Assembly: GCA_958510875.1 (NCBI GenBank)
Contig: OY294069.1
Location: 181,395,112 to 181,459,111 of the forward strand
Length of the DNA stretch: 64,000 nucleotides
From: Endomychus coccineus
Lineage: Eukaryota > Arthropoda > Insecta > Coleoptera > Endomychidae
Reading direction: 5' to 3'
Shown one piece after another: positions 11,046-63,596 of the stretch; position 1 is the first letter of the stretch; every line of letters starts with the position of its first letter. A program made the position numbers and the translations under genes. Below the pieces are notes generated by a model. The model was not told where the DNA came from, ran no database searches, and worked only from the letters and a program-made list of their open reading frames with translations.

Positions 11046-11832
11046 ATTGTGGTATCTGTGTGGGTGGGCTTGTGATAAATAGCGAAAGAAAAGTAATTAT
11101 TTGTGTGTGAAATTGTCAGATCTAAAAAGTTTAAGGACTTGTTGTTTTCCATCTCTAATGTGAATTCTATATTTGGGTGTAAGTTGTTGATATAGGTGAG
11201 AAAAGAATTTATTTGACGGTTACTGCCTGTATAGCAAGCGATTACGTCGTCAACATAGCGATACCAATATACAAACATGTGCTGAAAATTGGAATTTAAA
11301 ATCTTAGTTTCCAAGTAATTCATAAATATTTCTGCTAGCAACGGAGATAATGGCGAACCCATGGGGAGTCCGGTGTTCTGTTTGTAATATTTATCGTTAA
11401 TTGTGAAATAATTTTGGTCTATGCAAAGTGAGATTAAACTTAATATTTCCTGTGTTATTGCCGGTAAAGTATTATTGCGGATTAAAAGATCTTCAATTAG
11501 AGTGATGGTCAATTGTGTGGGAATACTTGGAAAAAGGTTCTTGACATCAAAAGATACAAGTTTGATATTTGTCTTTAGTTCTACATCTTTTATTTTTTCT
11601 ATTAACTGGAAAGAGTTTTTTATACTGTATTTAGGTTTAAAGTTTGTATATGTTGATATTATGTTGACTAACTTTTTCGCTATTTTTTGACAGGGTGCAT
11701 TGATATATGAACAGACGGGTCTTATGGGAGTATCGTCTTTGTGAATTTTTAATAAACCATAAAGAGAAGGTGGTTGAGGATTCATGTTCATTAAACGAGG
11801 CTTTTCATATTCAGTCAAAGACTGAATATGAA
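10280..11832 (-). pseudogene. PLE-2 reverse transcriptase plus GIY-YIG endonuclease, 5'-truncated but open
   Basis: The open frame runs to 11875, but its first ~15 residues come from the inverted arm read backwards; genuine element text begins near 'SLTEYEKPRL'. In order: finger region 'PPSLYGLLKIHKDD' and 'IRPVCS', 'VSFDVKNLFPSIP' with the first catalytic Asp, 'TGLPMGSPLSPLLAEIFM', the 'YRYVDD' catalytic box and 'NFLDLTISH'. A linker follows, then the GIY-YIG nuclease 'SGVYRLRCDDCSALYIGQTG', 'RFNEHLRSY' and 'ANHLLEHNH'. The frame is uninterrupted over ~515 residues. A full Penelope protein is longer at the N-terminus, so this copy is truncated at the fold-back junction. Confidence 0.9.
11804..11832. 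repeat. 13-bp hairpin at the PLE-2 fold-back junction
   Basis: A perfect 13-bp palindrome with a 3-nt AAA loop (TTCATATTCAGTC and its complement). Its right edge coincides with the start of the 893-bp right arm. Confidence 0.85.
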
Positions 11833-12597
11833 CACAACACTTCTTTACATCCACAATCACATAAGCTAGCAGCATATAATTGTATGATACATAGATTAAT
11901 TAATGTCCCATTAAGTAAAGATAATTTCCATTTAGAATTAAACAGAATCGTAGATATTGCCAAAAATAACGGTTATAATGTCAAGATAATCAATAAAATA
12001 CTCCAAAATAAACTCAATAAAAAAGCCTTAAGCATAATTTATCCGCAAATTAATAATAATACAAAATCAAATTTCACATGTCTAACATATTTAGGTAAAC
12101 ATTCACTAAAAATATCTCAATTCCTTAAAAAACAGAATAAAAACGTCGCCTTTAAAACAACAAATAACCTATGCTCGTATATTAATAACTCGAAATCTAA
12201 AAAAGATAACTTAAAGAAATCTGGAGTTTACAGACTGAGATGTGATGACTGTAGTGCTTTGTACATAGGACAAACTGGACGCAGTTTCAGCGTAAGGTTC
12301 AATGAACATTTGAGAAGTTACAGGCTCAAAAAAGAAGACTCTAATTACGCAAATCACCTGTTAGAACATAACCACAATTTCACCCTTAATCCTGATATTC
12401 TACATATTCAGGAAAAAGGACATAAACTTAATATATTAGAATCCATAGAAATTTTGAAACACGCAAAAAACAATAATAATGTAATATTAAATGATCAAAT
12501 CGACACATATAATTCACCGCTTGTTAACAATTTTGTAAACACACTCCCACCATTATCCACCCCCATCCCTCAATTTGCACCACATTCTGATCCCTGA
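11832..12597 (+). pseudogene. PLE-2 inverted partial copy: linker plus GIY-YIG endonuclease
   Basis: This is the plus-strand copy of the C-terminal half of the PLE-2 protein. An open frame from 11707 enters it, but residues before 11832 are antisense RT sequence. From 'HNTSLHPQSHKLAAYN' to the C-terminal 'PQFAPHSDP' it is residue-for-residue the same as the minus-strand copy, including 'YIGQTGRSFSVRFNEHL'. It has no RT domain and is a structural by-product of the fold-back. Confidence 0.88.
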
Positions 12598-19893: not shown

Positions 19894-21663
19894 CTATTTG
19901 AATTCCGGTCTCGGGGAAATTCCCTGTTTCTTACAGGATCCGAGTATACAATGTGAAATTTCAATGAGGAAAATCAAACTTGAAATACACATCCCCATTC
20001 CCAGAATGTAAAAAGCTCCGGTAAGATGCTGCACTTTGATTTCCGTAGCACCGCTGTCAAATGTATCAGCGCTGTACTTCTTGTATTGACTATAAATTTT
20101 CTGCATACCTCCAAATTGATCGAAATATCGTATTATTTTATTGATTGTGCTGCAAAGATGATGGCCTCTCCTGCACATCATCACCTGCTGTATGGGTCCC
20201 ATATCGATCGCTTTGAGATAATCTGGATGTCCACCTTCGTAAACGAAAAGATCACTGGTGATGTAAGAAAAGTCACGAACTTCCCCCAATTCCTTGATCA
20301 TATCAGGCCCAAAGTATTTCACTATTGGCTGCGATCTTGCGATCATTTTCCTATAAATCTCACTGTCCGTACCTTCAAGGTAGTATTTCTGCAACGGCAA
20401 TAGTTTTATTCTCAAATTCGAATTAGCCAAATCCTCTTCGGATTCGATTTTCTCAAACAAAGGTACCGTCATAATATTGGTCAATTTACTTTGATATACC
20501 GTATTCAAGTAGAAGTAGAAGAACAGATTAATCAAGTAAAATGAACGATATAACTTCGTGTTTATTTGGGGATTATCGCTGTGACCCAATAGAATTCTAA
20601 CCATTAAAAACGTCACAAAAGCTAGAGAGTAGGTGTGTCGGTGTTCGATCATGGGTATTACATATATCGTCAAACCTGTTAGCACTAGTAAGAAAAATAT
20701 CAGTGCCCACGTTGATGAAGAGAAAACTATTATAATAAACGTCCAATACGGGATAGTTCTCTTGGGCAACACCCAGATCATTTTAGAAACAAGATATGAA
20801 TCAGTTTCCACAATGTAATGGATCGAATTATCAGTACCTTGACCATGGTAGCTGCCCAAAACCAAATCTACTCTACGATGCTTCATGTCTTCGGCCATGA
20901 TGGTGAAACTGTTATTTCCAATGTATTCTGCTTCATAAATCTGCATAGTATCCATAATATTGATCATAGAGCCAGTGAACTTTCGAAAATCATCCAGCAC
21001 TTGCATCTGGATGCTATCTAATATCATAAAGTCATCATGTTTGAAGGCCACGTTCAATGTACAAGAAGATATAGATGGAGATACACCCGACAACTTATCG
21101 CTTATATCTGATGGTACAATCACCTCACCACATCTACTTTGTTCCTCCAGGGGGAACCATGAACTGAACTTGAATGTCCCTTCTTCCTCCAATTCCTCTC
21201 CAATAACTATTGATTTCATACCGAAGGACCACATTGTTTTGAATAGCTCATCGCTGTCGGTGACATTTGACAGTACCATACAGGTGGCATCAAAATTAAA
21301 ATCGTCGTCGATGAATAATGAATTCATCAATTCTATTAGCTCAGTAGTATTATGTACAATGAACAAGTAATTGGAACCCGTCAATAAACCGAAATTTTCG
21401 TAATCTGTGACGATTATTTTTGGACAAACCGAGTTTTCTATACCGATTTGGCTGTTTGATGATGTAAAAGCAGTGAAATAAGGATCACATAATCCCGTAT
21501 TTGTCAGTACCTCGGCGGGAATATAATATCTTGAGGTGCCGTTGAGGATAAGTTCTAGTGAAAAAAATAAATTCAACATGGCTAGTACGAATCCCCGGTC
21601 AAATACTGAGCGTTGAACTACTAAAATCAAATCAAAGTGAATGTCGTTAGAAGTGTAATTCAA
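19894..21663 (-). CDS. Divergent ionotropic receptor (IR), intronless
   Basis: Ligand-gated cation channel subunit of the insect chemosensory IR family, related to ionotropic glutamate receptors, acting at the plasma membrane of sensory neurons. The frame of 589 codons has no breaks. From the N-terminus: a divergent extracellular domain, S1 about 200-300, M1 about 307-336 ('YWTFIIIVFSSSTWALIFF'), pore helix about 344-360, M2 about 374-392 followed by 'YQSKLTNIMTVP' (the SYTANLTA-like position), S2 about 410-530, and M3 about 548-570. Canonical glutamate-binding residues are not evident, as in most IRs. Met29 (21579) precedes a hydrophobic 'LNLFFSLELIL' stretch like a signal peptide and is the likelier true start. 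The gene lies inside a nompC intron on the opposite strand. Confidence 0.87.
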   Translation of the reverse strand: MNYTSNDIHFDLILVVQRSVFDRGFVLAMLNLFFSLELILNGTSRYYIPAEVLTNTGLCDPYFTAFTSSNSQIGIENSVCPKIIVTDYENFGLLTGSNYLFIVHNTTELIELMNSLFIDDDFNFDATCMVLSNVTDSDELFKTMWSFGMKSIVIGEELEEEGTFKFSSWFPLEEQSRCGEVIVPSDISDKLSGVSPSISSCTLNVAFKHDDFMILDSIQMQVLDDFRKFTGSMINIMDTMQIYEAEYIGNNSFTIMAEDMKHRRVDLVLGSYHGQGTDNSIHYIVETDSYLVSKMIWVLPKRTIPYWTFIIIVFSSSTWALIFFLLVLTGLTIYVIPMIEHRHTYSLAFVTFLMVRILLGHSDNPQINTKLYRSFYLINLFFYFYLNTVYQSKLTNIMTVPLFEKIESEEDLANSNLRIKLLPLQKYYLEGTDSEIYRKMIARSQPIVKYFGPDMIKELGEVRDFSYITSDLFVYEGGHPDYLKAIDMGPIQQVMMCRRGHHLCSTINKIIRYFDQFGGMQKIYSQYKKYSADTFDSGATEIKVQHLTGAFYILGMGMCISSLIFLIEISHCILGSCKKQGISPRPEFK

Positions 21664-22593
21664 ATAATTGGTAAATGTGCTATTATTTTAGTATTAACAT
21701 GGCATACTGCATTATTTATGATAATGCATTATAAGTTGATTTTGGAATGTATTATTAAACCAAATTGGATATAATTCTGTTCGTTGAAAGGTTAGGACTT
21801 CCCGGACCTAATTTAATTAATCGATATACATTGAATCATGTTGCACTTCAGGTTATTTTGAATATAACGCTATAATTTTTATTACAAATTTAGACTGTAC
21901 GTATAATTTAACGTTGATTTTCAGTTGCTTCTTTATCTAAATTTAACTGTTTCTGAGATAACTTAACTTTTGCACTTCACATCAAAAAATCGCCAATTTA
22001 CTCATTGTTCAAATGTCAGATTTCTTTTTGTCTTTTCACAAGCGAGAGAGAGAGACCTCAAGCTCACTCTTGATATATGAACAGTCAACATGTTTTTAAT
22101 ATCCATTTTTTTTACCTCCCTCACTACACGTGGTATATAGTGTAGAGGTGACTGGGTGGTTGTGTGTGTGTGTGTGTGTGTTTTTTTCTAACGACGGCGG
22201 GGGAAATCTTCGAAAGATGCTGAGGAGCCCGTAAAATTTCAGGCGAAGTGTTTTTCTTTATGGTTTTTTGAATGTTACAATGAGAGAAATTATTTGACAG
22301 TAAGACAGATGAAAGATGTTTTATTTCTGATTTTATGGGTGGTGGGTGAGGCCATTGAGGTATCTATCGATGTGAGTGTATAGCGTGAAGGTTTCTTCCC
22401 ACAATAAATAACGCTACATGCACCACAAGAATCAGTCAATCAGGTGACTTCGATCACCTTTGCATATTTCTTGTTAAATGAATACAAAGATATAAAACAT
22501 ACTCACTGTGTAATAAATTCGATGGCTCTGATAGTTGAACAGGTGAATGTCATGATAGAAAATATTACTGATGTTCTCCCTTTTATGTTTTAG
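21664..22593. other. Region upstream of the IR gene; simple repeats only
   Basis: Intron DNA that probably includes the IR gene promoter (transcribed leftward), but no promoter motif is decisive. It has a GAGAGAGA stretch near 22044-22053 and a TG microsatellite at 22161-22180. Confidence 0.4.
22161..22180. repeat. TG dinucleotide microsatellite
   Basis: Ten perfect TG units followed by a T tract. Confidence 0.9.
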
Positions 22594-32591: not shown

Positions 32592-34016
32592 CATGGAGAA
32601 ACTCCTCTGCATCTCGCTTCCAGATGTTGTCGACCGGACGTGATACGCCATCTGATCGACTACGTCAAAGATAAAAAGGGCGAGGACAAAGCCTCAGCTT
32701 ACATCAACGAAGTGAACGAGAAAGATGAAAGTGCCTTACACTACGTTTGTACCGTGATGATGGGCGAAGTAGAAACGCCAAACGCTGATCGCGAAGTTGT
32801 CAAACTTCTTCTGGACAACGGCGCCGATATCAAATTGCAAACGAAACAACACGAGACCGCCTTCCATTATGTGGCAACGGCTGGTAATAACGAAGTGGTG
32901 ATGGAAATGATAGCACACATGTCCACGACGGATGCCCAGAAGGCGTTGAACCGTCAAAACGCGAACGGTTGGACGCCTTTATTGATCGCGTCCCATAAGG
33001 GTCACATGGATATGGTTAATAATTTACTAGCGAATCACGCTAGGGTGGACGTTTTCGACTTAGAAGGTCGCTCAGCTTTGCATTTGGGAGCAGAACACGG
33101 TTATCTCCAGGTGTGCGATTCTCTCCTGTCCAATAGGGCTTTCATCAATTCTAAATCGAGGAATGGACGAACCGCCTTACATTTAGCTTCTATGAACGGC
33201 TATATCCATTTGGTTAAGTTTCTCATCAAAGATCATAACGCCGTTATCGACATCTTAACGCTGAAAAAACAAACGCCTCTACATTTGGCGGCCGCTGCAG
33301 GTCAAATGGAAGTTTGTAAACTGTTATTGGAACTGGGTGCAGATATCGATGCTACGGACGAGCAAGGCCAAAAACCCATACACGCAGCTTGTCGCAATAA
33401 CTTCTCCGAAGTAGCTAAGCTCTTCCTGCAACAACATCCAAGCTTGGTGATGGCCACCACCAAGGACGGCAATACGTGCGCTCATATTGCCGCAGCCCAA
33501 GGAAGCGTTACAGTCATTGAGGAACTGATGAAATTTGACCGACAAGGCGTCATAAACGCGCGAAATAAATTGACAGACGCGACGCCGCTCCAGATAGCCG
33601 CCGAAGGCGGACACGCCGAAGTGGTAAAAGCTTTGGTTAGAGCCGGGGCTTCCATAACCGACGAGAACAAAGGTGGTTTCACGGCGGTACATTTGGCCGC
33701 CCAAAACGGTCACGGCACCGTGTTGGAAGTATTACGATCGTCCAATACGCTGCGCGTGGTCAGCAAAAAGTTGGGCGTTACGCCGTTACACGTCGCCGCT
33801 TATTTCGGCCAAGCCGATACGGTCAGAGAACTGCTAACGCACGTGCCTGGCACCGTGAAATCGGAAGTCCCCAACGGCGCGTCTCTGGTCCCCCTCTTGG
33901 GCAACGAATCCGGTATGACGCCTTTGCATCTGGCCGCGTTTTCTGGAAACGAGAACGTGGTGAGGTTGCTGTTGAATTCTCCCGGGGTTCAAGTTGATGC
34001 GTCCACGCACGAGAAT
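32592..34016 (+). CDS. nompC: nompC large ankyrin exon
   Basis: 475 codons, phase 0 on both sides, the largest exon. Acceptor TTATTTAG|CAT, donor AAT|GTAAGT. It encodes about 13 ankyrin repeats of the elastic tether that couples NOMPC to microtubules. Typical consensus pieces are 'GETPLHLASRC', 'GWTPLLIASHKGHMDM', 'GRSALHLGAEHGYL', 'KQTPLHLAAAAGQMEV', 'GNTCAHIAAAQGSV', 'GFTAVHLAAQNGHG' and 'GMTPLHLAAFSGNENV'. It is more GC-rich than the introns. No internal break is seen. Confidence 0.98.
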
Positions 34017-34616
34017 GTAAGTATTTTTCATGTTGATCTCTCTTTTAATCTATTTTCCTAAATTAAATTGAATGTCACATTACGACGGCAGTGTCACGTA
34101 ATGTAGTCGGATGGGTATAATAGGTTGAATTTTATCGTCAATTTCATCGAATGTACACCCACAAATTTGCTAATTTGTTATAAACAAATTATATTTATCA
34201 TCAAATATACGAATTTGACCAAAATGCCAAGCTTATAGTTGTTTTCTGATAATTTTGGCCTCATGAGTACGATTTCATTTGCTGTTATGATCTTCAAATG
34301 CATAGATGAATTTGTGTTCAACTCAACCAAATGAGACGTACTTGACTCAAAATGACCGGAAGAGATTGAGCTATTTACTTATCGAGGAAATATAGACGAA
34401 AATTGCCAAAATCTCGAGAAAAAAATTGTTGTCAACGGAATTCAATGATGAGGCGTCAATCGACGTGGAATTATGTCTGAAAAAAGTCTACTAGTAAGCG
34501 TTTGGAAGTGTGGCTTACTTGCATTGCTGCACTCATAAATGCATGTAAAAGATGCATTTTCCTAAAGGTATTTTTACAATTTGTGAAAACTAAACAATAA
34601 TCAGTAAAATCAGCTC
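34017..34616. other. nompC intron, nothing recognised
   Basis: AT-rich intron DNA without coding or repeat signature. Confidence 0.4.
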
Positions 34617-39998: not shown

Positions 39999-40689
39999 GA
40001 ACTTTGGCGAGGACCACTCAACTGGACGGCGTGGCGGACGCTCCTTCTCTTCGTGTTGTTCATAATCTGTCCACCTGTATGGATAGCATTCACTCTCCCA
40101 TTAGGCCATAAGTTCCATAAAGTTCCGATAATTAAGTTCATGTCTTATTTAACATCGCACGTTTATCTCATGCTCTTCCTCCTCATAGTGGGCATAACCC
40201 CTCCTTATCCAGTCGTCAGGTACAGTTTGCTACCGTACTGGTACGAATGGATCCTGTTGGTATGGCTCAGTGGTCTCTTGCTGTTCGAATTGACCAATCC
40301 GAGCGATAAATCCGGTCTGGGCTGGATCAAACTGTCCGTGTTGTTATTCAGCATCTTCGGCGTCGGTACCCATCTGCTGGGCCTGCTGTTCGTCGAGAAA
40401 ATCTACTGGCCAACTCTCATGTACTGTCGGAATCAACTGTTCGCGCTCTCATTCGTTTTGGCGTGCGTTCAGATCTTAGATTTCCTGTCCTTTCATCATC
40501 TGTTCGGACCGTGGGCTATAATCATCGGCAACTTGATGAAGGATTTGGCCAGATTTTTGGCCGTACTCGCCATATTCGTCTTCGGTTTTTCGATGCAGGT
40601 GGTCGCCTTGAATCAACCCTTCAGAAATTATTCGCAAGACGACGTGATGAGGCTTCAGAAGCCGAGAAGAAGAGGATATTTCGAAGACG
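39999..40689 (+). CDS. nompC: nompC exon (pre-S1 to S5)
   Basis: 691 bp, phase 0 in and phase 1 out. Acceptor TTTCAG|GAA, donor GACG|GTAAGT. It holds the transmembrane half of the channel up to S5: S1 in 'LLLFVLFIICPPVWIAF', S2 in 'SHVYLMLFLLIVGI', S3 in 'ILLVWLSGLLLFEL', then 'LFALSFVLACVQILDFL' as S4 and 'DLARFLAVLAIFVFGFSM' as S5. It ends at 'RRRGYFED' plus one base, which any of the four downstream pore exons can complete. Confidence 0.97.
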
Positions 40690-43215: not shown

Positions 43216-44313
43216 TATTAAATTTGGAAAAGCAATTTAGGATTTCATTTATCCTACTAGAATAATGAGTGAAACTTCTGTATTTGGGATTATTTGTTGA
43301 TCAGACAAACAACGATTACGGTTGTGATACATTTTTAATAGTCAACAATGTAATAGATCAAATTCCAGTTGCACTGTAAATATATACGAATAACACGTTT
43401 ACTGATATAGAAATGGAGAATTTGACAGAAGACGCAGAATGGTTAGACGTTGCGACCGCATCGTGGAATGTACCCAAACACGGGGGGGCACTCCGTAAGA
43501 AACGGCCCCCCATCACTGGGAGTAAGTGATCTGTGCTGATGAAGTGTATCGAAACGTCGTGTCGTGTCTGGTGTTTGTACTTTGTCTTTTTGTAGCTAAC
43601 ATGTCCAGTTTTTTCGCAGGTGTTTTGTGTGTACAAGTCGCGCAGACCGATTAGCTTCTGTTATGTCCCGATGGTGTGTTGTTTGAGCCGACCTGATATA
43701 GGTCTGTGTATGTCTTTTACATGTTTTAGATTTAGTAGAACCAGATATTGTGACGTCTCTATCTGTTTGTTGCGAGATAGTCTGATTATTTGCGCTTTAT
43801 TACTTCTCAAATTCGTTCGACGAGTGCGAGCAGTTTAGTTGACATATCGTCCATACATAATAAAAGACGCTCAACCTCCAAATATTGGTGTCTGGTACTT
43901 TATTTTCTATTTGCTTTCGTTTGATAAAAATGATTTTCATTGAATCATTAGAAATAGTAGAAACACATAGAAATAAACCTGCAATGAGTAAGAACGAATG
44001 TTTTCACAAACTAAACATCCTCTGACCAGAGTTTCCAAAGAGTAATTAACCATGAGATAACTACGAGGGCAGTGCCAAAAATTCATCTCTTCTCTATATA
44101 GTTGAACGTGGTTCTATGAAATCTATGAGAAGAATGTCCTCACAACCACAAAGCATCATAGGCAGTATGTTATTTGTTAACTGAGAGATCCTAAATTTTC
44201 TTGGTGATGCTTCTCCTTCTGTCCTCCATTCCATCGAATCGTATTAGAGAGAAATGGTTTCATCTCTGTGACATTTGTCTTCAACAGGTCCACAGAGTTT
44301 TCTCCTCAGAGCT
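43216..44313. other. nompC intron, no clear gene
   Basis: It includes a GC-richer patch at 43430-43560 with GCTGATGAAGTGTATCGAAACGTCG, superficially like a PLE end. I recognise nothing else. Confidence 0.35.
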
Positions 44314-44640: not shown

Positions 44641-45670
44641 ACAATGATATTTTAATTTTAAGGCAAAAATAAATACGATATTCGTGTTTATCTCGTCGAT
44701 TTTTGTACGTTATCCAGAAGCCGAAATCTTGAAGAATTTGCAAGCACAAGCCACTTTGAACGCACGAAATCAGTTTTCAGTGCTAGCGCGCAATGCCTCA
44801 CGCTCCGGCAGCCACGCACGCTTAGCTTTGTTACTCAATTTCTAATACTATGGATCAATGAAACATATCCCAGTATTTTTTTATTGAAAATGTATCAAAC
44901 ATTAACCTCCATAAAACACACTTCTGTATAACGTGAAATAAAAAAATTATCGCTGGTCCAGAAGATCGTAGGTGAAATTTTTTTTTTCCAATTCGTAAAA
45001 AAATGTTAGAAATCGATTTCCGTCAAAGATATTTTTCTAAAATTAAAATTGTAAAACTAATCTGAAAAAAACATGTTAAAAAAGAAGAAATTTTTTCAAA
45101 GTAATTTTTTCACCCTAAAAATTGGAAGAATCGCTACGTTTCTTCAATAAAATTATAGCACAACTCTTCATGAAGAAAATGAGCCCAAAATCGTTACTCC
45201 AGGACCATTTCCTGAGAAGATCTAGCCAATTTATGAGAGCGTCTTTTTTTCGAAAAATCGATATATTTTGAAAAATAATCAATATTTCGAATCAGGAAAA
45301 AAAGTGCTCTCTTAGCTTGCCATGGGCTATATGTACAGGAAACAATACATATGGAAACGTAATAGTTAACGACTTCTCCCCGATTTTTAACGGTTATTTC
45401 AATATAACTCGAAAAGTATGAATGATATTGATAATTATGAATCGATACCTACAACTTTTTCATTTAACTTTTTCCGATCCGAGCTATAGTTTTTTAATTA
45501 TTTAAGAAAAACCACTTTTTGCAACTTTGCCAATTTTTTAGGTTATGTTCGCCATTTCAGATCGAGTTGCATTTACGAAAACTCACCTTTAAATTCAATT
45601 TCCTATACGCTCATATTTTTTTTTTCCAGGTATTAATTTCTGCACGCATTTCTGTCTATTGCTTGGTCTA
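44641..45670. other. nompC intron, nothing recognised
   Basis: Mostly A/T-rich text. A GC-richer patch at 44790-44830 was not identified. Confidence 0.35.
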
Positions 45671-45870
45671 TTGGAAGATCGAATCGTTATATAGGAACTA
45701 GGTGTAATAAATATTTGAGATCTTTTAAATTTAATAAGACAGATCCTCCTTTTTCTAACCATATTCTGGAAACACAGGACATACCTTCGCAAAATTTGAA
45801 AAAAATCGTATTTTGCATTGTCAGAGCAAAAGTTTAAAATTGAACATCCTAGAATCAGTAATATATCGAC
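45671..45870 (+). pseudogene. PLE GIY-YIG fragment inside unit A
   Basis: It reads 'RYIGTRCNKYLRSFKFNKT' then 'PPFSNHILETQDIPSQN' and 'KIVFCIVRAKV', a decayed GIY-YIG C-terminal half of a Penelope-like element. The same fragment occurs in unit B. Confidence 0.62.
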
Positions 45871-46037
45871 AATAACATTCTTAATGATCTATTATATTTG
45901 TATTACAGCCTGCTTCTCAATGTTCTTGTAACATGATATGTTCATACAAAATTCTATCGTTTCGCCCTTCAAAATGTGATTGTATTGTAAAACTAAAACA
46001 CCACTATGTTGGTGTCACTTTTATTTGTAACTTCCGT

Positions 46038-46071
46038 TACTCGAGTTTCAGCGTTATTACACCATCTTCAG
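46038..46071 (-). ncRNA. Hammerhead-like motif, third PLE family (unit A)
   Basis: The minus strand reads CTGAAGA, extra T, stem II GGTGT-AATA-ACGCT (one G-U pair), GAAA, self-complementary stem III ACTCGAGT, then A. The core residues are intact, but I could not pair a stem I. Confidence 0.42.
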
Positions 46072-46407
46072 CCAGAATATACCTTGATCTATGTCAGGAT
46101 ATAGTTTCCTCATTCTAAAAAACTCACTGAATCGCTTTATTTTATATGGATATTTAATAGTTAAAACAAAAATTGGAAAGGATTATCCTTAAATCAATTG
46201 CAAGCAAAACTTTCATAACATTGTATCAATGGAACATACAATGTGGTGGTAAGAATTGCGCCAAATTCAATTCAATCGCCGTGGCAGATAGCTCTAAATA
46301 CTATTCGAAGACCAATCAATCAGACGATCGATTATCTGTGCTAGCATGTGGTGACGATACCAACCTTAGTTGAACTGTCCTACTTAACAAGTACCTGATG
46401 TTCGTAG

Positions 46408-46637
46408 TGGTCATGAATCCTCTGTTCGCGTTCGAGCTGTTGTTTTTCGCCGTTTTCGGCCAGACCACGTACGAGGAACTGATCATGCGGCCGGCGCAGC
46501 GAAGCAGCCCGCCATTGAGGCCCGAATGGACGTCGAGTCTCTTCAAAATCGTCTTCGGAGTCTACATGCTCGTGTCGGTGGTCGTGCTCATAAACCTCCT
46601 CATTGCCATGATGTCCGATACGTATCAGCGCATTCAG
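46408..46637 (+). CDS. nompC: nompC pore/S6 exon 12a (mutually exclusive candidate)
   Basis: 230 bp, phase 1 in and phase 0 out. Acceptor TTCGTAG|TG with a branch-like CTTAAC 20-25 nt upstream; donor CAG|GTAATC. It encodes the pore helix and filter ('FAFELLFFAVFGQTT'), a pore loop 'YEELIMRPAQRSSPPLRPEW', S6 'KIVFGVYMLVSVVVLINLLI' and the start of the TRP helix ('MMSDTYQRIQ'). By inspection it is identical over all 230 bases to exon 12c. Its length is not a multiple of three, so skipping it or joining it to 12b would break the frame. Confidence 0.93.
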
Positions 46638-46667
46638 GTAATCTGTTCTTCTGCTTTATGATTCCAG
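46638..46667 (+). other. 30-nt gap between alternative pore exons 12a and 12b
   Basis: It begins GTAATC, the 12a donor, and ends TGATTCCAG, the 12b acceptor, with a pyrimidine-rich middle. At 30 nt it is far below the size a spliceosome can remove, so it should force a choice between the two exons. Confidence 0.88.
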
Positions 46668-46897
46668 TCCAAAAGAACCCGATCAGCGCTTTCGAGCTGA
46701 TGTTTTTTGCGGTTTTCGGCCAAACCAATATCGACCAGCTGAAAATCACAGGGTACACTACCGTCAATCATAATAATCAGCCCTATTGGACGGAGGTGTT
46801 GTTTAAGATGGTTTTCGCCGTTTATATGCTGGTGTCTGTCGTAGTGCTGATAAAGCTACTCATTGCTATGATGACCGATACATACCAACGTATTCAG
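46668..46897 (+). CDS. nompC: nompC pore/S6 exon 12b (alternative, probably decaying)
   Basis: 230 bp, phase 1 in and phase 0 out. Acceptor ATTCCAG|TC, donor CAG|GTAAAC. It offers a different pore loop ('QTNIDQLKITGYTTVNH' then 'NNQPYWTEVL') to 12a. Compared with its duplicate 12d there are five base differences and all five change the protein: Met for Leu in the pore helix, Ile for Thr in the loop, Met for Ile and Ala for Gly at the start of S6, and Lys for the conserved Asn in the S6 'LINLLIAMM' motif. The open frame remains. It may be losing function or make a channel with an altered gate. Confidence 0.85.
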
Positions 46898-47754
46898 GTA
46901 AACCCGCCTAAGACCCCCTATTTCGATCCTTGCGGCATCCAATCTAGACCATGTACTCAAGCACGATCAACACGAACCGTTTCATTTTGTTCCATACAAC
47001 AAGATATAATATTACTCATTTGTAACTCGCTTACATTCTCTACTATTTAGGAGACATATTATTATTTATTCTCTTGGATTTGGCTATGTGTATAAGGTGT
47101 TATTCAGACTGGATGATATGAAGTCTTCAGCTGATCCTACCGGTTACGCCAGTACACCCGGATTTCTCGACGCATGTGATTCTTATTCTTTTATTAGGGT
47201 CTCCAATAGGTCGATGTCTCAAGAATTCCAGTGCAAAATTTGAATATACGCTGTCATTTCTTCGGACCATGTGTGATTGTGTTTCTACGTGATCCACGCC
47301 AAAGTTTGGGGTCGCACGTTTCTACATGTCAAAGTAGATTTACTCAATGTGTTAGTCGGAAGATTACAATTCAATGCGTTGAATGTATATTGGACTATTA
47401 TTTTAGATAAGACGTAATGGTTTATATGGTTTATATAGCTGCTTTTTTGACAGGTGAACCACCCAGGAATCACACACGGATACGTTAAATTCGTGATGAA
47501 TACCTCTTCCAGCTATATCTCGTAATGAATTTGATAAAACACAATTTTCCAACTACATATTAACAATATTTTCATTGTTAATAGATTATAGTTATTGTAG
47601 TGTAATATTCTAAACACACTTTACAATTTGATTGGAATGAATCCACTCATATTGATAGCAGGAAATCTCTCAAATTACATAACTTGATCCTACCGGTTCC
47701 GCCGCCAGTATATCCATATCCACTCACTTATATACGGTGCTGCCTTACAGGAAA
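46898..47754. other. nompC intron, rest of unit A
   Basis: Non-coding tail of duplication unit A. It contains two internal short repeats with GATCCTACCGGTT(A/C)CGCC (47135-47155 and 47686-47706). No gene. Confidence 0.5.
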
Positions 47755-48060
47755 TATTGAGTGCGTTGTCGGAAACGAAAAATTACAGATCTACTGGAAT
47801 TACCCAGTTCCGACCGTCAGGTCCGTATAAGCAAATAGGCCTGACGTTGTCCTCCTCGATTAACAAACCAAGACTATGTATATCATCGAATTCTCTGCTC
47901 CGGCAGAGAAGAACATAGTCTTGACAGAAGGGTAAAAATGGAGAAAGTATCAAGATCTTCTGTTTGAGCCATTGCACGATATACCCAGGCAACAAGGTCG
48001 TATTAGTGGTTCTGATTATCGGTGTTTTGAGCGGTCTTCGTGGTCTTCGGGTCCGAATTT
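47755..48060 (+). pseudogene. R2-like endonuclease remnant, second copy
   Basis: It aligns with 42530-42830: shared blocks include CATCGAATTCTCTGCTCCGG and AGAGAAGAACATAGTCTT. It encodes the decayed 'IEFSAPAEKNIV' segment. It lies just past the end of unit A. Confidence 0.62.
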
Positions 48061-48161
48061 AAAGATATTCCATTTTAAAAAAAATACGGGCAGTCACCAA
48101 GCACTGCTGACAGAGTGAACACTGACATTATGAAGTAACCAATTTATCTTGGGAATTTCAT

Positions 48162-48401
48162 TCAAATGAGTATTATTTCACCAGTATCATCTCTTTCTAC
48201 ATGACACAATTTTCCTACAGTGCCATTTGTCAATCCATCCCCAACTTCTATGTTATTAATTATCATGTATGGTCGGTTAAGAACTAAAATTAACTCGTAT
48301 GGTAATCCATCCGTATCAACGGTTCTCATTTTATGCAACTTCTGCCTGACAAAATTTTGTTGCTCAGCATTATGACAACCAACGAAGACATCGGATGCCA
48401 C
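48162..48401 (-). pseudogene. Helitron/PIF1-like helicase C-terminal fragment
   Basis: The open minus-strand frame reads 'DVFVGCHNAEQQNFVRQKLH', 'DGLPYELILVLNRPYMIINN' and 'GDGLTNGTVGKL'. The 'LPYxLxLxxxxPxMxxxNIxxxDGLxNGTxG' pattern is the PIF1-family helicase domain carried by Helitrons. Other helicase motifs (Walker A/B) and the Rep nuclease are absent, so it is an isolated fragment. Confidence 0.72.
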
Positions 48402-49278
48402 AGATACTATTGTCTACGGGGTTTAGTATGGAGCTGTTGTACTCGTTGTAGCATCCGAAATTACAATTTTATTATTTTTAAATGGAAATTGATATAATTA
48501 GGTTTTCTTCAGTTTTCGCAACTGTCAGCATTTCAATCAACAATTTACACATTTTTAGATTTAATAATAAAAAACGTATAATGGGCGGTACAATCTCTGT
48601 AAAGAGTATGAATGTAACGCGATAGTCATTATAATAAATACACATTATTTTATTTCTAAGACATATTATTTATTGATATCTACATCGATGGGAATGAAAA
48701 TAATGTTAAACAGCATTGGTCAGAATTGAATATGTCTACGGATGGTGGTAAAAGAAAACATCTTCAATTTGGACCAAAATGTAAACATATAAACATTTCC
48801 GTCAAATGTCAGTATGATCGTAAATTACACCACAAATAATTATTTGAAATGAAATTTTGTACTTTCGTATTAGTAGTATTAAAAAAAACATCAAGACGAT
48901 ACTCACTATTATATTTGATGCTGTGATCCAACATTCCTACAATGAAAATAATAAACTAGATATAACACAATGTCATCAATGTGTAGTACACATGCAAAGT
49001 TCTCACTTATACACATCACTAATGTTATATTCTTACGAAAAGAATTATATTCACAATTTCTAAAACCTTACACGTAGATACGATACTGAGTACACAATGT
49101 ACAATCAATAAATTCAATAAAAATACAACTTTTGTCTGCACGAGGACCGAGGATTGAGTAAATGAATAACGTCAAGTATCCGACTCAGATATGCACACGT
49201 GTGTAAGCGTATAGAGAGACAGCCTGACGCCTGACTCAAGTTGTTGCGAGGGTGGCAGTATACATAACATCTATTATA
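48402..49278. other. nompC intron, nothing recognised
   Basis: AT-rich, no identifiable repeat or gene. Confidence 0.4.
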
Positions 49279-51609
49279 CAGGCTGTCCTCGAACTGCGTG
49301 GAAAAAATAAAACCGAAGATTCCTTGATAAGAAAAAGAGTTGATGAGCCTTTTTACTTTTGCCTCAAGTGTCTTGTTTACCCGGTAGAGGGCTTCAAAAT
49401 TGCAAAAATAATTTTGTTTTTTCGGTATAACTTGAGAACGTGATGAAGAACTTTTACAATATTTAGCAGGTGAGTTACTGTCAATAATGGCCATTTTTGA
49501 GAGTGGAGCACAGAGCCTTAGAGACCATAGAAATGGCTCAAACTTGAGGATGTAACGGGAAAAGTGTCCAGAACTTTTTTTGTGGTCAATGTAATTCACT
49601 CAATATTTCTTATGTAGATAGCTTATGTAATTTGAAAACTTTTCTTACTCTTAGAAAATTTTGATAAAATCAACGGATTAGCTTTAAAAAATTAATTTTC
49701 GAGTCTCTGCAATTTTGGCTTACTAATTTTACTTGATTAAAATACCTTAGTTGCCTTTGCTTTTCTAATGTCATTTTGGCATTTGAAGAATTTATTCTCA
49801 AAACTGTCAGTTTTTACTTTGCTTTCCGTAAAAATTTTATAAAATTATGGCTCAAAATTTCACTAACACTGAAATGGTTGATATGTTATTGATTTATGGA
49901 CTTTGTCGTTGCAATGACGGGAGAAGGGAAAGATATCCGCATCGCAGAATTCGAAATCGGCAAACCTTCACGAAACTGGCAAATTTGAAGCAAATCGCAG
50001 AGAAACTGGACGCAGACGGATAAGAAGGACGTTAGAGCTCGAAGAAGCGATACTGGAAGCGGTTGAAACTGAACCTGGGATAAGCACACTACGTTTGGGA
50101 CTTCGTATTGGAGCCTCAAAATCATTAGTTCATAATGTACTGAAAGAAGAACTGTTGTATCCCTATCATATTAAAACAGTTCAAGGCTTATTGCCCATGG
50201 ATCCAGGTCATCGGCTAAATTTCTGTCGGCTTATTGTCCAAAGACAAAACGCAAACCCCAATTTTTGTAGAAGAATTCTGTTCACGGACGAAGATACTTT
50301 CACGAGATGTGGTCTTTTTAACCTCCATAATGAACATTTCTATGCTGATGAAAATCCTCATGAAACGGAAGTTACATATTTTCAGAATCAAACTAAAATC
50401 AATGTTTGGGTTGGAATTGTGGATAACTTTATTATTGGCCCTACCGTTATACCCGATCGATTGAACGGGGAGAACTACTTGAACTTTTTGGAACAAAGGC
50501 TACTTGAACTGTTGGAAGACTTGCCCTTACACATTCGTCGTGGCCTGGTTTATCCATGATGGTGCACCTCCTCATTTCACATTAGGTGTGAGGCGACATT
50601 TGAATGCGGAATATCCAGATCGCTGGATAGGTAGAGGACACGATGCACCAGCGAACTGGCCGGCCCGCTCCCCTGATTTGACGCCCTGAGACTTTTTTCT
50701 ATGGGGCGCTTTGAAGTCGAAAGTTTATGCAGCTCCAGTGAACACACGAAAGGAATTGTTGAAACGAATTAATCATGAAGCGGATTTATTGAAGAATGAT
50801 CCTGAAGTACTAGCCAGAGTTCAATCCAATTTCTTGAAACGAATTAATTTGTGTATTCAGGAAAATGAGCAACATTTCGAACAATTGATGCCTTAGCGAT
50901 TTCCCAAAAAGTTTTGTTGTTTCTTTCAATTTAGCATTTGTTTTTCCTAAATAATCACATCGTTTCCCCATTTCTATTGTTTTTATTATTCGTGTTTTAC
51001 CGAGATATTAACCATTTCAGTGTTAGTAAAATTTTGAGCCATAATTTTATAAAATTTTTGCGGAAAGCAAAGTAAAAACTGACAGTTTTGAGAATAAATT
51101 CTCCAAATGCCAAAATGACATTAGAAAAGCAAAGGAAACTAAGGTATTTTAATCAAGTAAAATTAGTAAGCCAAAATTGCAGAGACTCGAAAATTATTTT
51201 TTTCAAGCTAATCCGTTGATTTTATCAAAGTTTTCTAAGAGTAAGAAAAGTTTTCAAATTAGATAAGCTATCTACATAAAAAATATAGAGTGAATTACAT
51301 TGACCACAAAAAAGTTCTGGACACTTTTCCCGTTACATCTTCAAGTTTGAGCCATTTCTATGGTCTCTAAGGCTCTACGCTCCACTCTCAAAAACGGCTT
51401 TTATTGACAGTAATTCACCTGCCAAATATTGTAGAAGTCCTTCATCACGTTCTCAAGTTATACCGAAAAAACAAAATTATTTTTGCAACTTTGAAGCCCT
51501 CTACCGGCTAAACAAGACACTTGAGGCAAAAGTAAAAAGGCTCATCAAATTTTTTTCAAATCAAAGAATCTTTGGTTTTATTTTTGCCACGCAGTTCGAG
51601 GACACCCTG
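49279..51609 (+). mobile_element. mariner-like transposon with ~600-bp inverted repeats
   Basis: The termini CAGG(C)TGTCCTCGAACTGCGTGG on the left and CCACGCAGTTCGAGGACACCCTG on the right are inverted and flanked by TA. The arms run inward about 600 bp (49279-49880 and 51008-51609) and include the first dozen codons of the transposase. The total is 2.33 kb. The single gene (49847-50896) is broken. It sits between duplication units A and B. Confidence 0.88.
49847..50896 (+). pseudogene. mariner-like (IS630/Tc1/mariner) transposase, frameshifted
   Basis: It starts 'MAQNFTNTEMVDMLLIYGLC' and 'RRIRNRQTFTKLANL'. After a break comes the HTH/linker text 'ETEPGISTLRLGLRIG', the first catalytic Asp in 'ILFTDEDTFTRCG', and 'INVWVGIVDNFIIGP'. 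A frameshift at about 50540 precedes the second Asp in 'FIHDGAPPHFTLGVRRHL', then 'RWIGRGHDAPANWPARSPDL' with the third Asp. A TGA replaces the codon after 'LTP' (50688-50690), and the rest is intact to 'NEQHFEQLMP'. It was formerly a complete DDD-type transposase. Confidence 0.85.
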
Positions 51610-51709
51610 TATATAGCTACAGCGTGACGGTACGTGACGGACTCATGGTTTTACCCCTCATCTGAAATAACTCAAAGCGCGTAAAGAAGTTTTCACTCCA
51701 AGAATTCTA

Positions 51710-51935
51710 ATGTGTAAATTAAAATGTTCAAAGTATGTTAACTTTTACATTGGAAGATCATTTCGTTATATAGGAACTAGGTGTAATAAATATTTGAGAT
51801 CTTTTAAATTTAATAAGACAGATCCTCCTTTTTCTAACCATATTCTGGAAACACAGGACATACCTTCGCAAAATTTGAAAAAAATCGTATTTTGCATTGT
51901 CAGAGCAAAAGTTTAAAATTGAACATTCTAGAATC
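51710..51935 (+). pseudogene. PLE GIY-YIG fragment at unit B
   Basis: It starts 40 bp further upstream than the unit-A copy, reading 'CSKYVNFYIGRSFRYIGTRC', so the YIG half of the nuclease is retained. It continues 'NKYLRSFKFNKTDPPFSNH' as in unit A. Confidence 0.66.
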
Positions 51936-52121
51936 AGTAATACATCGACAAAAACATTCTTAATGATCAATTATATTTGTATTACAGCCTACTTCTCAAT
52001 GTTCTTGTAACATGATATATGTTCATACAACAAAATTCTATCGTTCCACCCTTCAAAATGTGATTGTATTGTAAAACTAAAACACCACTATGTTGGTATC
52101 ACTTTTATTTGTAACTTCCGT

Positions 52122-52155
52122 TACTCGAGTTTCAGCGTTATTACACCATCTTCAG
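52122..52155 (-). ncRNA. Hammerhead-like motif, third PLE family (unit B)
   Basis: Same motif as 46038-46071, with CTGAAGA, stem II GGTGT/ACGCT, GAAA and ACTCGAGT all retained. Confidence 0.42.
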
Positions 52156-52513
52156 CCAGTATATACCTCGATCTATGTCAGGATATATTTTTGGCACTGT
52201 CCATGTATTCTCATTCTAAAAAACTCACTGAATCACTTTATTTTATATGGATATTTAATAGTTAAAAAAAAAATTGGAGAGGATTATTCTTAAATCAATT
52301 GCAAGCAAAACTTTCATAACATTGTATCAAAGGAACATACAATGTGGTGGGAAGAATTGCGCCAAATTCAATTAAATCGCCGTGGCAGATAGCGTAGCTC
52401 TAAATATTATTCGAAGACCAAATAATCAGACGATCGATTATCTGTGCTAGCATGTGGTGACGATACCAACCTTAGCTGAACTGTCCTACTTAACAAGTAC
52501 CTGATGTTCGTAG

Positions 52514-52743
52514 TGGTCATGAATCCTCTGTTCGCGTTCGAGCTGTTGTTTTTCGCCGTTTTCGGCCAGACCACGTACGAGGAACTGATCATGCGGCCGG
52601 CGCAGCGAAGCAGCCCGCCATTGAGGCCCGAATGGACGTCGAGTCTCTTCAAAATCGTCTTCGGAGTCTACATGCTCGTGTCGGTGGTCGTGCTCATAAA
52701 CCTCCTCATTGCCATGATGTCCGATACGTATCAGCGCATTCAG
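52514..52743 (+). CDS. nompC: nompC pore/S6 exon 12c (mutually exclusive candidate)
   Basis: 230 bp, same splice sites and phases as 12a, and the same 230-base sequence by inspection. It encodes 'FAFELLFFAVFGQTT', the basic/proline pore loop and the canonical S6 with 'LINLLIAMM'. A 30-nt gap (52744-52773) separates it from 12d. Because it matches 12a, the protein is the same whichever is used. Confidence 0.94.
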
Positions 52744-52773
52744 GTAATCTGTTCTTCTGCTTTATGATTCCAG

Positions 52774-53003
52774 TCCAAAAGAACCCGATCAGCGCTTTCG
52801 AGCTGCTGTTTTTTGCGGTTTTCGGCCAAACCAATACCGACCAGCTGAAAATCACAGGGTACACTACCGTCAATCATAATAATCAGCCCTATTGGACGGA
52901 GGTGTTGTTTAAGATTGTTTTCGGCGTTTATATGCTGGTGTCTGTCGTAGTGCTGATAAACCTACTCATTGCTATGATGACCGATACATACCAACGTATT
53001 CAG
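52774..53003 (+). CDS. nompC: nompC pore/S6 exon 12d (mutually exclusive candidate)
   Basis: 230 bp, phase 1 in and phase 0 out, acceptor ATTCCAG|TC, donor CAG|GTAAAC. It encodes 'ISAFELLFFAVFGQTN', the loop 'DQLKITGYTTVNHNN', and S6 'KIVFGVYMLVSVVVLINLLI' with the conserved Asn. It is the intact version of 12b and a good candidate for the functional second pore isoform. Confidence 0.94.
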
Positions 53004-56000
53004 GTAAACCCGCCTAAGACCCCTATTTCGATCCTTGCGGCATCCAATCTAGACCATGTACTCAAACACGATCAACACGAACCGTTTCATTCCATTCGAT
53101 ACAACAAGATATAATATTACTCATTTGTAACTCGCTGACAATTCTTACATTTTCTACTATTTAGGAGACATATTATTATTTCTTCACTAGGAATTGGCTA
53201 TGTGTATAAGGTGTTACTCAGACTGCATGGTTTGAAGTCTTCAGCTGATCCTACCGGTTACGCCAGTACACCCAGATTTCTCCACCCATGTGATTCGTAT
53301 ACTCCTATTAGGGTCTCCAATAGGTCGATGTCTCAAGAATTCCAGTGCAAAATTTTAATATACGGACCATGTGTGATTGTGTTTCTACGTGATCCACGCC
53401 AAAGTTTACTGTCGCACGTTTCCACATGTCAAAGTAGATTGACTCAATGTGTTAGTCGGAAGATTACAGTTCAATGCGTTGAATGTATATTGGACTATTA
53501 TTTTAGATAAGACATAATGGTTTATATGGTTTATATAGCTGCAACTTTTTTGCCAGGTGAACCACCCAGCAATCACACCACACGGATGCGTTAAATTCGT
53601 GATGAATACTTTTTTCAGCTATATCCCGTAATTAATTGGATAAAACACAATTTTTCCGATTCAATAACTACATATTAACAATATTTTCATTGTTAATACA
53701 TTATAGTTATTGAACTGTAATATTTTAAACACAATTTACAATTCGATTTGGATGAATTCACTCATATTGATAGCAGGAACTATCTCACATTACATGATCC
53801 TACCGGTTCCGCCAGTATACCCATATCCACACACTTATATACGTATCGTTTACTCAATAATTGCGATTTAAAAATAGGTGTAGGTTAAATGCTGTAATTT
53901 ATTCAATGCATTTTTTCAAATGTATCCATATTCGAAATCAGTATCAAAATGTCGAGCATCATTTTTGAATTGTCCAGCAGATCCTGGTGGATTCAAATCA
54001 GTGCGCATATCGCACAAGAATTTGACGGCTAACATCCTTGATGATGCTGAAGTATTTTTGAAAATGCTCCGGAAGTATAACCATGTTTCTAATTTAGCGT
54101 TGATCGCATGTCAAGTGTTCCCGTCTGTAATTTGGTATAGTGGGAGAATCATATCGCGTAACCTGCAAACATCAATTTTGTTATTTTTTTGCTCAAGAAA
54201 CCCTTCTTATAATCGAGTACAGGTCTAGATGTAATGCCCAATGAGTCGATTCATCATATCCGCTAGCACAATCACACGCTAAAGCTCGTTTTTGACGCGC
54301 CGCACCAGTTCTCTTGGGCTGGATCATTGGCCGTTTTCGCAAAATCATAATACCCAGTAGACTATTAGTTGTTAGTGCTTTAGACGTTCATACAGTGTGC
54401 ATCAGAATGGAGCTGCTTCATCCTAGTTTTGTTTTTAGACGTAGATAGATAGATAGGTGCCCATCATCAAGCAGCTTTCAATGTTAGACGATAGTAATGA
54501 AATCGACAGACACTACAACGAAATTATAACGGGAAAAATGGTTCGTTTCGATTTTAGGCTATGCAGATCGGAAAATACAAAAGGTCGTCCCGCTCGTTAT
54601 TCAATTGCCAACAATTCATAATGCTTCAAAATAGGAGCACTAACCTCAAATCATCCAGTTAACAATGAATTGAATCGAAACTATTTAGCTGGAAGACGAT
54701 AAACCCCTAAATATAGCAACGTCATTCAAAATGTTCTATAGAATGATAACTTTCCAATCGGCATAGTAAATGCGAAAATTTTGACTGGATTCTTAAATAA
54801 AATTATACCACCATTTCATTGTCAGGCTCGAAACCTGCCGCACTTCTTTCTACCAGCCTCTATTGTTCTATCGAGCCTAGTGAGGTATATCCTGATGCCT
54901 ATAATCTACTAACTTTCAAGAAAAATTTCATCTACCTCCTCTCCTGTCTCTTCAACTCTGGCTCAAATGACGTTCTAGAAACATTACTCGTATAAGTCAA
55001 CACATGAGGAAAATACTACTCCGGCGCTTCGCCTTAGTTGATTCTCTATTTTTTTATTAGCGATCCTATAATATTCTGTTGAAGAATTTAGTGTATCTAA
55101 ATAAAACACATTTCGCAAATTTGTTCGATTTGTAATTATTAGAAATTGAAATGCAGTATAGGGTACAATCGTGTGAATAAGGCAGAAAATAATTATTTTT
55201 CCGAGGCTAGAAAAAATTTTCGGCTTGATTTAACGATACCTGAGACATTGAAGCAGGGTTCTTGAATTGGAACAATTTTCGATTTTTGCGTCACATCAGC
55301 ACTTTTAGATGTCAAGGTTTCGACAGCAATTATAGGATCCTCAAGAATATCGCGAGAAGATGATTTTGTATTCTCTGTTTTCTATTTTCATATGCGTATA
55401 TTATTTCTCGAGCTGTTGTAAGCCTAAAATTGAACAGATTGTCTAAATTACGGATCACCTGAAATTAAGTATTTAGATGAACCAACCATTTTGTGATGTT
55501 CCTCAGCTCAAGTAAATTTTTCTAAACATATTGATTGGATTGATTAATCCAATTGATTCAATTTTTTGAAAGATAATAGACTATATTTTTGGAAATTACA
55601 AGATAATGTAAATTATTGAACTAATTTTAAATGTTTCTTCCTAAAAACTCAATTTGAATTGTGTTCTAGAGATAATGCAAATAATTCCAGTACTTCACAA
55701 TTTTGAATGGGAATGGAGGTTTTTGAGGCGTTTTTAATTTTTTTACAGCTATTTTTCGATGCATTTTCATGGTGTATTTTTCGATTTTGTTGATTTTGTA
55801 CCAGCACAGTTTTTCACATTTTTACTAAGATTTTTGCCTAATGGACCGACCTGTAGCATGATTTTGAATTTTGTCGTTTTGATATACTTTAATTTCATGG
55901 AAATCGCTCATCCTGATGATATTATACACTGTTGAGCATACTTGATTTCATGTTAGCAGTTTCATTGCATTGGGAACTTGAGTCAAGCTGAACATAATTT

Positions 56001-56194: not shown

Positions 56195-56330
56195 GCACAA
56201 TCTGATATAGAATGGAAATTTGGTTTGAGTAAACTCATAAGATCCATGCACCGAACAACAACAGCTCCAAGTCCCATCAATTTGATAACAACGTGGTTAT
56301 TCTATCTTGTGGATATTTGCAAGAGAAGAA
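56195..56330 (+). CDS. nompC: nompC exon (TRP helix)
   Basis: 136 bp, phase 0 in and phase 1 out. Acceptor CGTGTAG|GCA, donor AGAA|GTAAGT. It encodes the TRP domain immediately after S6: 'AQSDIEWKFGLSKLIRSMHR' with the conserved Trp, then 'TTTAPSPINLITTW' and 'YLVDICKRR'. It joins in frame to the end ('TYQRIQ') of any of the four pore exons. Confidence 0.96.
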
Positions 56331-62685: not shown

Positions 62686-62795
62686 TTAGACATATGTTTC
62701 AATGTGACCTATTTTCGAAGAATATACGAAAGAGGATATAGATATCATATCCATATTATTTTTTTCCGTTGGAGAACAGTGTTATTGTTAGATAC

Positions 62796-63177
62796 CTACT
62801 ACTTGCAAACATAACCCCCAGAGCAGCCGGTTCCAGTTCATTGTCAGCACATCCCGGTTGAATTCTTCGTCCCCCATTAACGTAAATATCCAGCGTGCCA
62901 ATTGGCGGATAGTAACCATAAAAACCGCCGTCTGTATGAATTGCGTCAACTATTTTGGCATCTTCGCGATATAATCTAGCGGATGGTGTAACGAAGGGGT
63001 TTGTAAAAAACGGTCCGGCTGGGTCAAGACCAGTGATACGACCGATTCTATCATCTGTCCTTTGGATGATTTCTTTAGCTGCAAAACCTGCTATATGGGC
63101 TCCTAGTGAATGGCCTATCATATGTACATGTTTCAGTCGTAGTTTAGAATCAACGATGAAAGTTCCCAATATGATGC
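62796..63177 (-). CDS. Pancreatic-type lipase exon
   Basis: One exon of an insect neutral lipase (alpha/beta hydrolase), likely a secreted lipase or phospholipase A1-like protein. It contains the nucleophile elbow 'HMIGHSLGAHIAGFA' (Ser in GHSLG), the catalytic Asp in 'RITGLDPAGPFF', and 'DAIHTDGGFYG', 'PIGTLDIYVNGGRRIQPGC'. The acceptor ATTTCAG|GC is clear. The donor is AG|GTATCT at 62796 or an alternative after 'PAALG'. The catalytic His exon and the N-terminal exons are not visible in the window. Confidence 0.87.
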
Positions 63178-63596
63178 CTGAAATAATCATGAATTATCAA
63201 GTTTCTAATATTTATATGGTTATTATGCTTGCAAATCTATCAGTGGAAACCAGTCATTTCAGTCGAAAACCATAGATATAAATTGACAGGTTTCGAGCCT
63301 AACAATGAAGGAGTAACCAGCCTGAGCTTGTCTAGTCATCCTACGTGGAATTGCTCTTGGTGCAACCATAGTAATAGCTGAAGAAAAAGAAGAGATCATT
63401 CACCTTCCTACGTTGTTCTAGATTGGGCAATGAATCATGAGACTGTACGAATGCCTCTCCTCTGAAAAGAATCTCAGAGCTTTGTGGAATAGGGATCATA
63501 TATTCATATACTTAATCAACACTATTTCCATAAATGCATAGTATACCTCATTTTTATTATTAATCACCGTAGCAAAAATGTGCTACATCAACATAG
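63178..63596. other. Lipase intron or flank, nothing recognised
   Basis: No further lipase exon is recognisable to the right of 63177. Confidence 0.4.

Follow-up and report, generated by a model that had tools for sequence, protein, structure and literature searches.

A probable choice among tandemly duplicated pore exons in the nompC gene of the beetle Endomychus coccineus

How many different pores can one channel gene offer? The question arises at nompC, a touch and hearing channel gene whose product, NOMPC, has been much studied as a mechanically gated TRP channel. The window analyzed here is a stretch of 64,000 nucleotides from the beetle Endomychus coccineus (GenBank assembly GCA_958510875.1, contig OY294069.1, positions 181,395,112 to 181,459,111 of the forward strand), and its plus strand carries a long stretch of TRPN/nompC: an ankyrin frame, exon 11, four candidate pore exons designated 12a to 12d, and exon 13. 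The four probably make up a region of one nompC gene in which the pore exon is chosen; they are ordered a-b-a-b, and each transcript would take one of them. As read from the sequence, the a/b pair is an old one that gene models already contain without remark, and what is new is a tandem copy of the pair with one copy changing in a patterned way.

The identity of the gene rests on its match to Drosophila NOMPC (5VKQ), since Pfam gave 0 families for the exon 11 frame and placed Ion_trans below threshold in the 12b frame (21.3 bits versus a cut-off of 25). A join of exons 11, 12d, and 13 matched 5VKQ with an E value of 2.5e-172, against 2.7e-19 for the runner-up, TRPC4, and the same join made with 12a gave 1.6e-169. 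The encoded six-helix TRP channel domain is closest to NOMPC, as a TRPN should be. Upstream, the ankyrin array includes an open frame of 489 residues (32592-34058) that likewise matches 5VKQ (E = 3.2e-291); its closest relatives among 131 proteins compared are beetle proteins, at about 88%. The whole genome (906 Mb in 129 contigs) was searched at E <= 0.001, with only the best candidates scored. A 143-residue query spanning exons 11, 12d, and 13 returned 9 matches from 18 candidates scored, 6 of them inside nompC (the four pore exons, exon 13, and the end of exon 11); the remaining 3 are distant TRP-like sequences with 42, 42, and 39% identity. DNA searches on the same terms found the a-type and b-type exons nowhere else. 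A second nompC locus or an extra pore exon was also sought, and none was found at this threshold among the best candidates scored.

The initial annotation had assigned these exons to nompC, described them as equal in length and phase with good splice sites, and proposed that they encode the pore helix, selectivity filter, pore loop, and S6, and that skipping all of them or including two would break the reading frame. All of this holds. The four coordinates are exact (Table 1), every exon enters in phase 1 and leaves in phase 0 with AG before it and GT after it, and alignment with 5VKQ, in which the numbering was checked, shows that each spans pore helix, filter, outer loop, and S6. The filter residue of NOMPC is G1506, according to a table in PMC5951680, the part of that paper used here. 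Donors read CAG|gtaatc in 12a and 12c and CAG|gtaaac in 12b and 12d, and the acceptors end in ttcgtag and attccag, respectively. When the 16 subsets of the exons were joined between exons 11 and 13, the frame stayed open in 4, exactly the single-exon ones; total skipping and all 11 multiple inclusions ran into a stop. The four are homologous tandem exons of equal phase, as in a mutually exclusive cluster. Nucleotide identity is 230/230 between 12a and 12c, 225/230 between 12b and 12d, 148/230 between 12a and 12d, and 146/230 between 12a and 12b. The four pore choices that had been proposed stand as four intact exons but are predicted to yield at most three different proteins, since 12a equals 12c. 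The initial annotation did not mention this identity, the short a-b spacer, the changes on 12b, or a cassette exon at 43411-43521.

Table 1. Features of the nompC region, in window positions
Feature	Position	Strand	Remarks
Exon 11 (S1-S5)	39999..40689	+	Start inferred from TTTCAG acceptor; donor ACG|gtaagt
Optional turret cassette exon	43411..43521	+	111 bp, phase 1-1, 37 residues (EMENLTEDAEWLDVATASWNVPKHGGALRKKRPPITG); resembles cassettes in predicted proteins of several other beetles
Duplicated unit 1	45670..47736	+	Local alignment with unit 2
Pore exon 12a (a-type)	46408..46637	+	230 bp, AG/GT-flanked, open
Spacer, 12a donor to 12b acceptor	46638..46667	+	30 nucleotides; too short to splice out
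Pore exon 12b (b-type)	46668..46897	+	230 bp; five derived amino acid changes, including S6 Asn to Lys
Mariner-like element, not part of channel	49275..51613	.	Inverted terminal repeats of about 610 bp each
Duplicated unit 2	51749..53843	+	Local alignment with unit 1
Pore exon 12c	52514..52743	+	230 bp; identical to 12a
Spacer, 12c to 12d	52744..52773	+	30 nucleotides; identical to unit 1 spacer (local alignment)
Pore exon 12d (b-type)	52774..53003	+	230 bp; commonest residue at all five differing sites
Exon 13 (AQSDIEWKFG..., TRP domain)	56195..56330	+	End inferred from gtaagt donor

How would one exon per transcript be enforced? Within a unit, the a-type and b-type pore exons lie so close that each transcript would take one or the other. 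The steric threshold cited in the available part of PMC7969005 is about 50 nucleotides from 5' splice site to branch point, and the intron within each unit, at 30 nucleotides, is below the splicing minimum. The spliceosome could not remove such an intron, and steric hindrance would thereby enforce the choice. Because the spacer totals 30 nucleotides, the 12b branch point has to fall within either the spacer or 12a itself. The portion of PMC7969005 that we draw on describes a similar arrangement in OGDH exons 4a and 4b, two exons too close for joint splicing with branch points near the 5' splice site, although OGDH is a vertebrate enzyme gene and the nompC spacer is 30 nucleotides in all. A predicted Henosepilachna protein (P0004) reads ...TYQRIQ-VIQFYFFLIP-VQKNP..., in which VIQFYFFLIP fits read-through of a 31-nucleotide spacer starting GTNAT, to judge from this one gene model.

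Steric hindrance does not apply between the units, which are 6.1 kb apart. There, transcripts with double inclusion would be removed by way of their frameshift and premature stop, or further regulation would act; if both units are used, three different proteins would result, one from 12a and the identical 12c, one from 12d, and one from 12b. The inability of steric hindrance to separate 12a from 12c or 12d also speaks for another mechanism, in which exclusion would work mainly through competing long-range RNA pairings between a docking site and selectors, as in Dscam1, a gene that serves cell recognition. Such pairing is predicted for Coleoptera Dscam1 in the accessible text of PMC8042237, which also gives more than 45% of exon 6 cluster introns as shorter than 50 bp. 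The beetle Dscam1 clusters thus resemble nompC in being insect mutually exclusive exons with some introns below 50 bp, but they contain many exons, and in the same excerpt RNA pairing is backed by comparison in Dscam1, whereas in this window the docking site and selectors remain hypothetical. We regard pairing as the main mechanism here as rather unlikely.

The a-b-a-b order itself is, on the evidence of the alignments, the product of a tandem duplication of the a/b pair. The units are about 2.07 kb long and 6106 bp apart, in agreement with the initial proposal that an existing pair was copied in tandem 6.1 kb downstream. Between units 1 and 2, differences number 25/738 in the left flank, 0/230 for 12a/12c, 0/30 in the spacer, 5/230 for 12b/12d, and 52/816 in the right flank; outside the exon-spacer-exon block, this amounts to 77 differences in 1554 aligned sites, 38 of them transitions and 39 transversions. 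A divergence of 5% might be allelic in an outbred insect, in which case the duplication would be an assembly artefact, two haplotypes placed in succession, as the initial annotation had wished to see checked. We judge this very improbable. The duplicated stretch is short with abrupt ends and different flanking sequence, the units are separated by 4012 bp containing an inserted mariner-like element, the contig extends past 181 Mb, the window has no N, and the genome searches described above placed neither exon type nor another nompC locus elsewhere. The inverted repeats of the element are 93 to 96% complementary, and in the pre-mRNA it could fold into a large hairpin lying between units 1 and 2. 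It is called mariner-like from a reading of its open reading frames, for which Pfam gave no match.

Set against the noncoding rate, the exons have changed unevenly. The pair 12a/12c has 0 amino acid changes versus 8.7 expected (P = 1.7e-4), and the 12d branch has 0 versus 4.4 expected (P = 0.012). These three exons look constrained, and 12b would no longer follow the constraint that held its b-type ancestor, one of its departures being a Lys in place of the S6 Asn near the gate. Synonymous sites in both exon pairs are likewise unchanged, with 5.1 changes expected (P = 0.006), and the units share a difference-free tract at 46371-46699. The synonymous deficit suggests either gene conversion or constraint on the exon sequence.

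Is the a/b pair itself old? A total of 133 proteins were compared, drawn from the best 120 of 443, the best 120 of 331, and all 117 of three listings. Beetle rows carry both a-type (TTYDEL...RPLWTDNLF) and b-type (VQKNP...QPYWTEVLF) exons, and two pore exons are fused in several gene models, including those of Dendroctonus, Popillia, Henosepilachna, Papilio, and Choristoneura. In a tree of 55 hand-chosen rows and 71 columns, with many forks unresolved, beetle a-type exons group with one fly, flea, and moth type and beetle b-type exons with the other fly and moth type, the two sides being parted by a branch with support 98/95; bugs, a mayfly, and both bee types fall on the b side. We read this as an a/b pair that existed before the beetle lineage parted from that of flies and moths. 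The comparison across species that had been proposed at the outset finds both types recurring in beetles and grouping with separate fly and moth types, and the two loop types noted then are distinct but not new here, being found in many beetle gene models and matched by fly and moth types. Annotated nompC isoforms of other insects (NCBI and UniRef models) resemble the present locus in that models of beetles and flies carry one or the other of two pore types and may include or lack a turret cassette; they differ from it in that no model with four pore exons was seen among the 133 proteins. One model of Molorchus minor (P0001) fuses an incomplete a exon, a b exon, and then a further a-like exon (a'), and expansion beyond two pore exons has probably occurred elsewhere too. 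The ladybirds Henosepilachna, Harmonia, and Cryptolaemus have two nompC-like proteins each (P0004/P0007, P0009/P0010, and P0073/P0012, respectively), and one of the two has a WEDVI-type pore. This suggests that the ladybird family has a second nompC gene.

A literature search, judged mostly by titles and covering few subscription journals, found no description of nompC pore exon choice, and absence from print is not established by it. In the passages seen, mutually exclusive exons belong to TRPL (PMC6137742) or to PrTRPM and a gene encoding 928 residues (PMC7143563), "mutually exclusive" concerns localisation (PMC3778012), and splicing concerns para (PMC10316460).

Several points weigh against a single cluster from which one exon is chosen. 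The choice per transcript is read from the genomic sequence alone. Frameshift or other regulation must bar 12a with 12c and 12a with 12d, because steric hindrance cannot. The identity of 12a and 12c could reflect recent gene conversion instead of selection. The tree does not establish a pair shared by all insects, because both bee types fall on its b side, and exon order may differ in other beetles, as the Cryptolaemus model (P0073) has the order b, cassette, a.

Are both units in use? Exon 12b differs from 12d by L1500M, T1510I, I1536M, G1539A, and N1551K (5VKQ numbering); all five differences change an amino acid. The last replaces the S6 Asn with Lys, three residues ahead of I1554, which we take to be the lower gate of NOMPC. 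We give not quite an even chance to the alternative that one unit alone is used, most likely 12c/12d, unit 1 being a duplicate with a decaying 12b. It has the same architecture and exclusion logic as the a-b-a-b choice region, and the odds of the two overlap. In its favor, the residue of 12d at each of the five sites is the one most frequent among Asn-type rows, 12b carries only amino acid changes, their number agrees with neutral drift along a single branch (4.4 expected), and Gly 1539, present in all 88 distinct other exons, is Ala in 12b. Three of the five changes fall in columns that are at least 98% invariant among Asn-type exons, which alone is not unusual, since 2902 of 20,000 random sets (14.5%) had at least three such hits. 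Against it, the frame and both splice sites of 12b are intact, 12a of the same unit is unchanged, and two of the 12b changes fall on residues that define a non-Asn pore class.

That class emerged from 145 S6 segments of 132 of the 133 proteins, of which 142 could be aligned at filter and S6 (3 were dropped), giving 88 distinct rows. The residue before LLIAMM, 5VKQ position 1551, is Asn in 80, Thr in 5, and Lys in 3. The Thr belongs to a moth alternative exon, and the Lys is found in Henosepilachna (P0004), Cryptolaemus (P0073), and one beetle-like protein (P0070), all b-type. Position 1510, four residues after the filter Gly, is Ile or Leu in 8/8 non-Asn rows versus 0/80 Asn rows; position 1540 is Ala or Gly in 8/8 versus 1/80; and position 1508 is other than Thr in 7/8 versus 1/80. 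Fisher tests gave 1.6e-11 for 1510 and 1.4e-10 for 1540, values that ignore kinship, the 8 rows representing about three origins. Exon 12b has the class residues at 1510 (Ile) and 1551 (Lys), and its Met at 1500 is shared with a single distinct row, which is non-Asn. Because it keeps Val at 1540 (with Ala at 1539) and Thr at 1508, we describe it as moving towards the Lys/Thr class and not as a member. A rule by which any non-Asn residue would mark the class was rejected, since Drosophila NOMPC (5VKQ) has Gln at 1551, where 80 of the 88 distinct insect pore exons have Asn, together with Thr 1510 and Ile 1540.

Could chance produce the same pattern? In a simulation, five random amino acid changes, weighted by the observed transition share, were placed in 12d, and the class rows were weighted as three origins. 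Sets as class-like as 12b arose 13 times in 100,000 (P about 1e-4), a result that tells against random decay as a complete account and that is weakened by the 2.5% of sets reaching that mark when the 1551 column is left out. The simulation values are guides, not proof, because the class was defined post hoc, after the Lys was seen; for the same reason, decay is kept as the main rival. On present residues, 12b is thus an exon either decaying or becoming a modified pore.

What could a Lys at 1551 do? In the sections of PMC11144267 consulted, TRPV1 N676 lies three residues before the gate residue I679, the same spacing as from 1551 to 1554 in NOMPC, and helps water and ions pass the hydrophobic gate; the Asn equivalent to N676 is said in the corresponding part of PMC10193913 to be completely conserved across practically all TRP sequences examined there. 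Four Lys at 1551 should hinder cations, by analogy, and the current might be lower in a mixed tetramer with one or two of them. The Gln of 5VKQ is counter-evidence to such an effect, as the site tolerates change. A wider proposal, which we put forward as speculation with the odds clearly against it, is that nompC has an unrecognised second pore class in which the S6 Asn near the gate is replaced, accompanied by matched changes beyond the filter and in the upper part of S6. This class would have arisen about three times and would form a weakly conducting or current-limiting subunit mixed into tetramers; the duplication would have freed 12b to turn towards it and left 12d with the ordinary pore, one gene thereby being able to offer both. 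A parallel is NALCN, as far as the part of PMC3557258 at hand describes it: exons 15a and 15b (EEEE or EKEE) lie in tandem, are mutually exclusive, and, as in nompC, each encode the pore loop together with the beginning of S6; they form an old pair, lost or kept by lineage, one version of which brings a Lys into the ion pathway. NALCN differs in belonging to another channel family, in having two exons and not four, and in carrying its Lys in the selectivity filter, in contrast to the 12b Lys in S6 near the lower gate.

The turret cassette is in phase between exons 11 and 12 and has the donor GGA|gtaagt, and with the pore exons it could give up to six turret-pore pairings. An old choice of two pore exons together with this cassette would give one gene several pores, and conductance could thereby be set differently from one touch or hearing neuron to another. 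A young duplication in which one copy is diverging would show such change in progress. The correlated residues 1508, 1510, 1540, and 1551 would be direct targets for recording.

The window also contains other open frames. An intronless frame of 597 amino acids on the minus strand (19897-21687), ionotropic-receptor-like by its Pfam Lig_chan match (E = 1.1e-8), sits between nompC ankyrin exons on the opposite strand. Further upstream is a reverse transcriptase frame (10283-11899, minus strand) with a weak GIY-YIG match (21.2 bits versus a cut-off of 22.6), Penelope-like by the reading of its open reading frame, adjoined in opposite orientation by a second partial copy of the protein (11704-12594, plus strand). 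Near the window end, an open frame on the minus strand (62759-63193) contains a lipase domain (Pfam Lipase, E = 2.1e-29).

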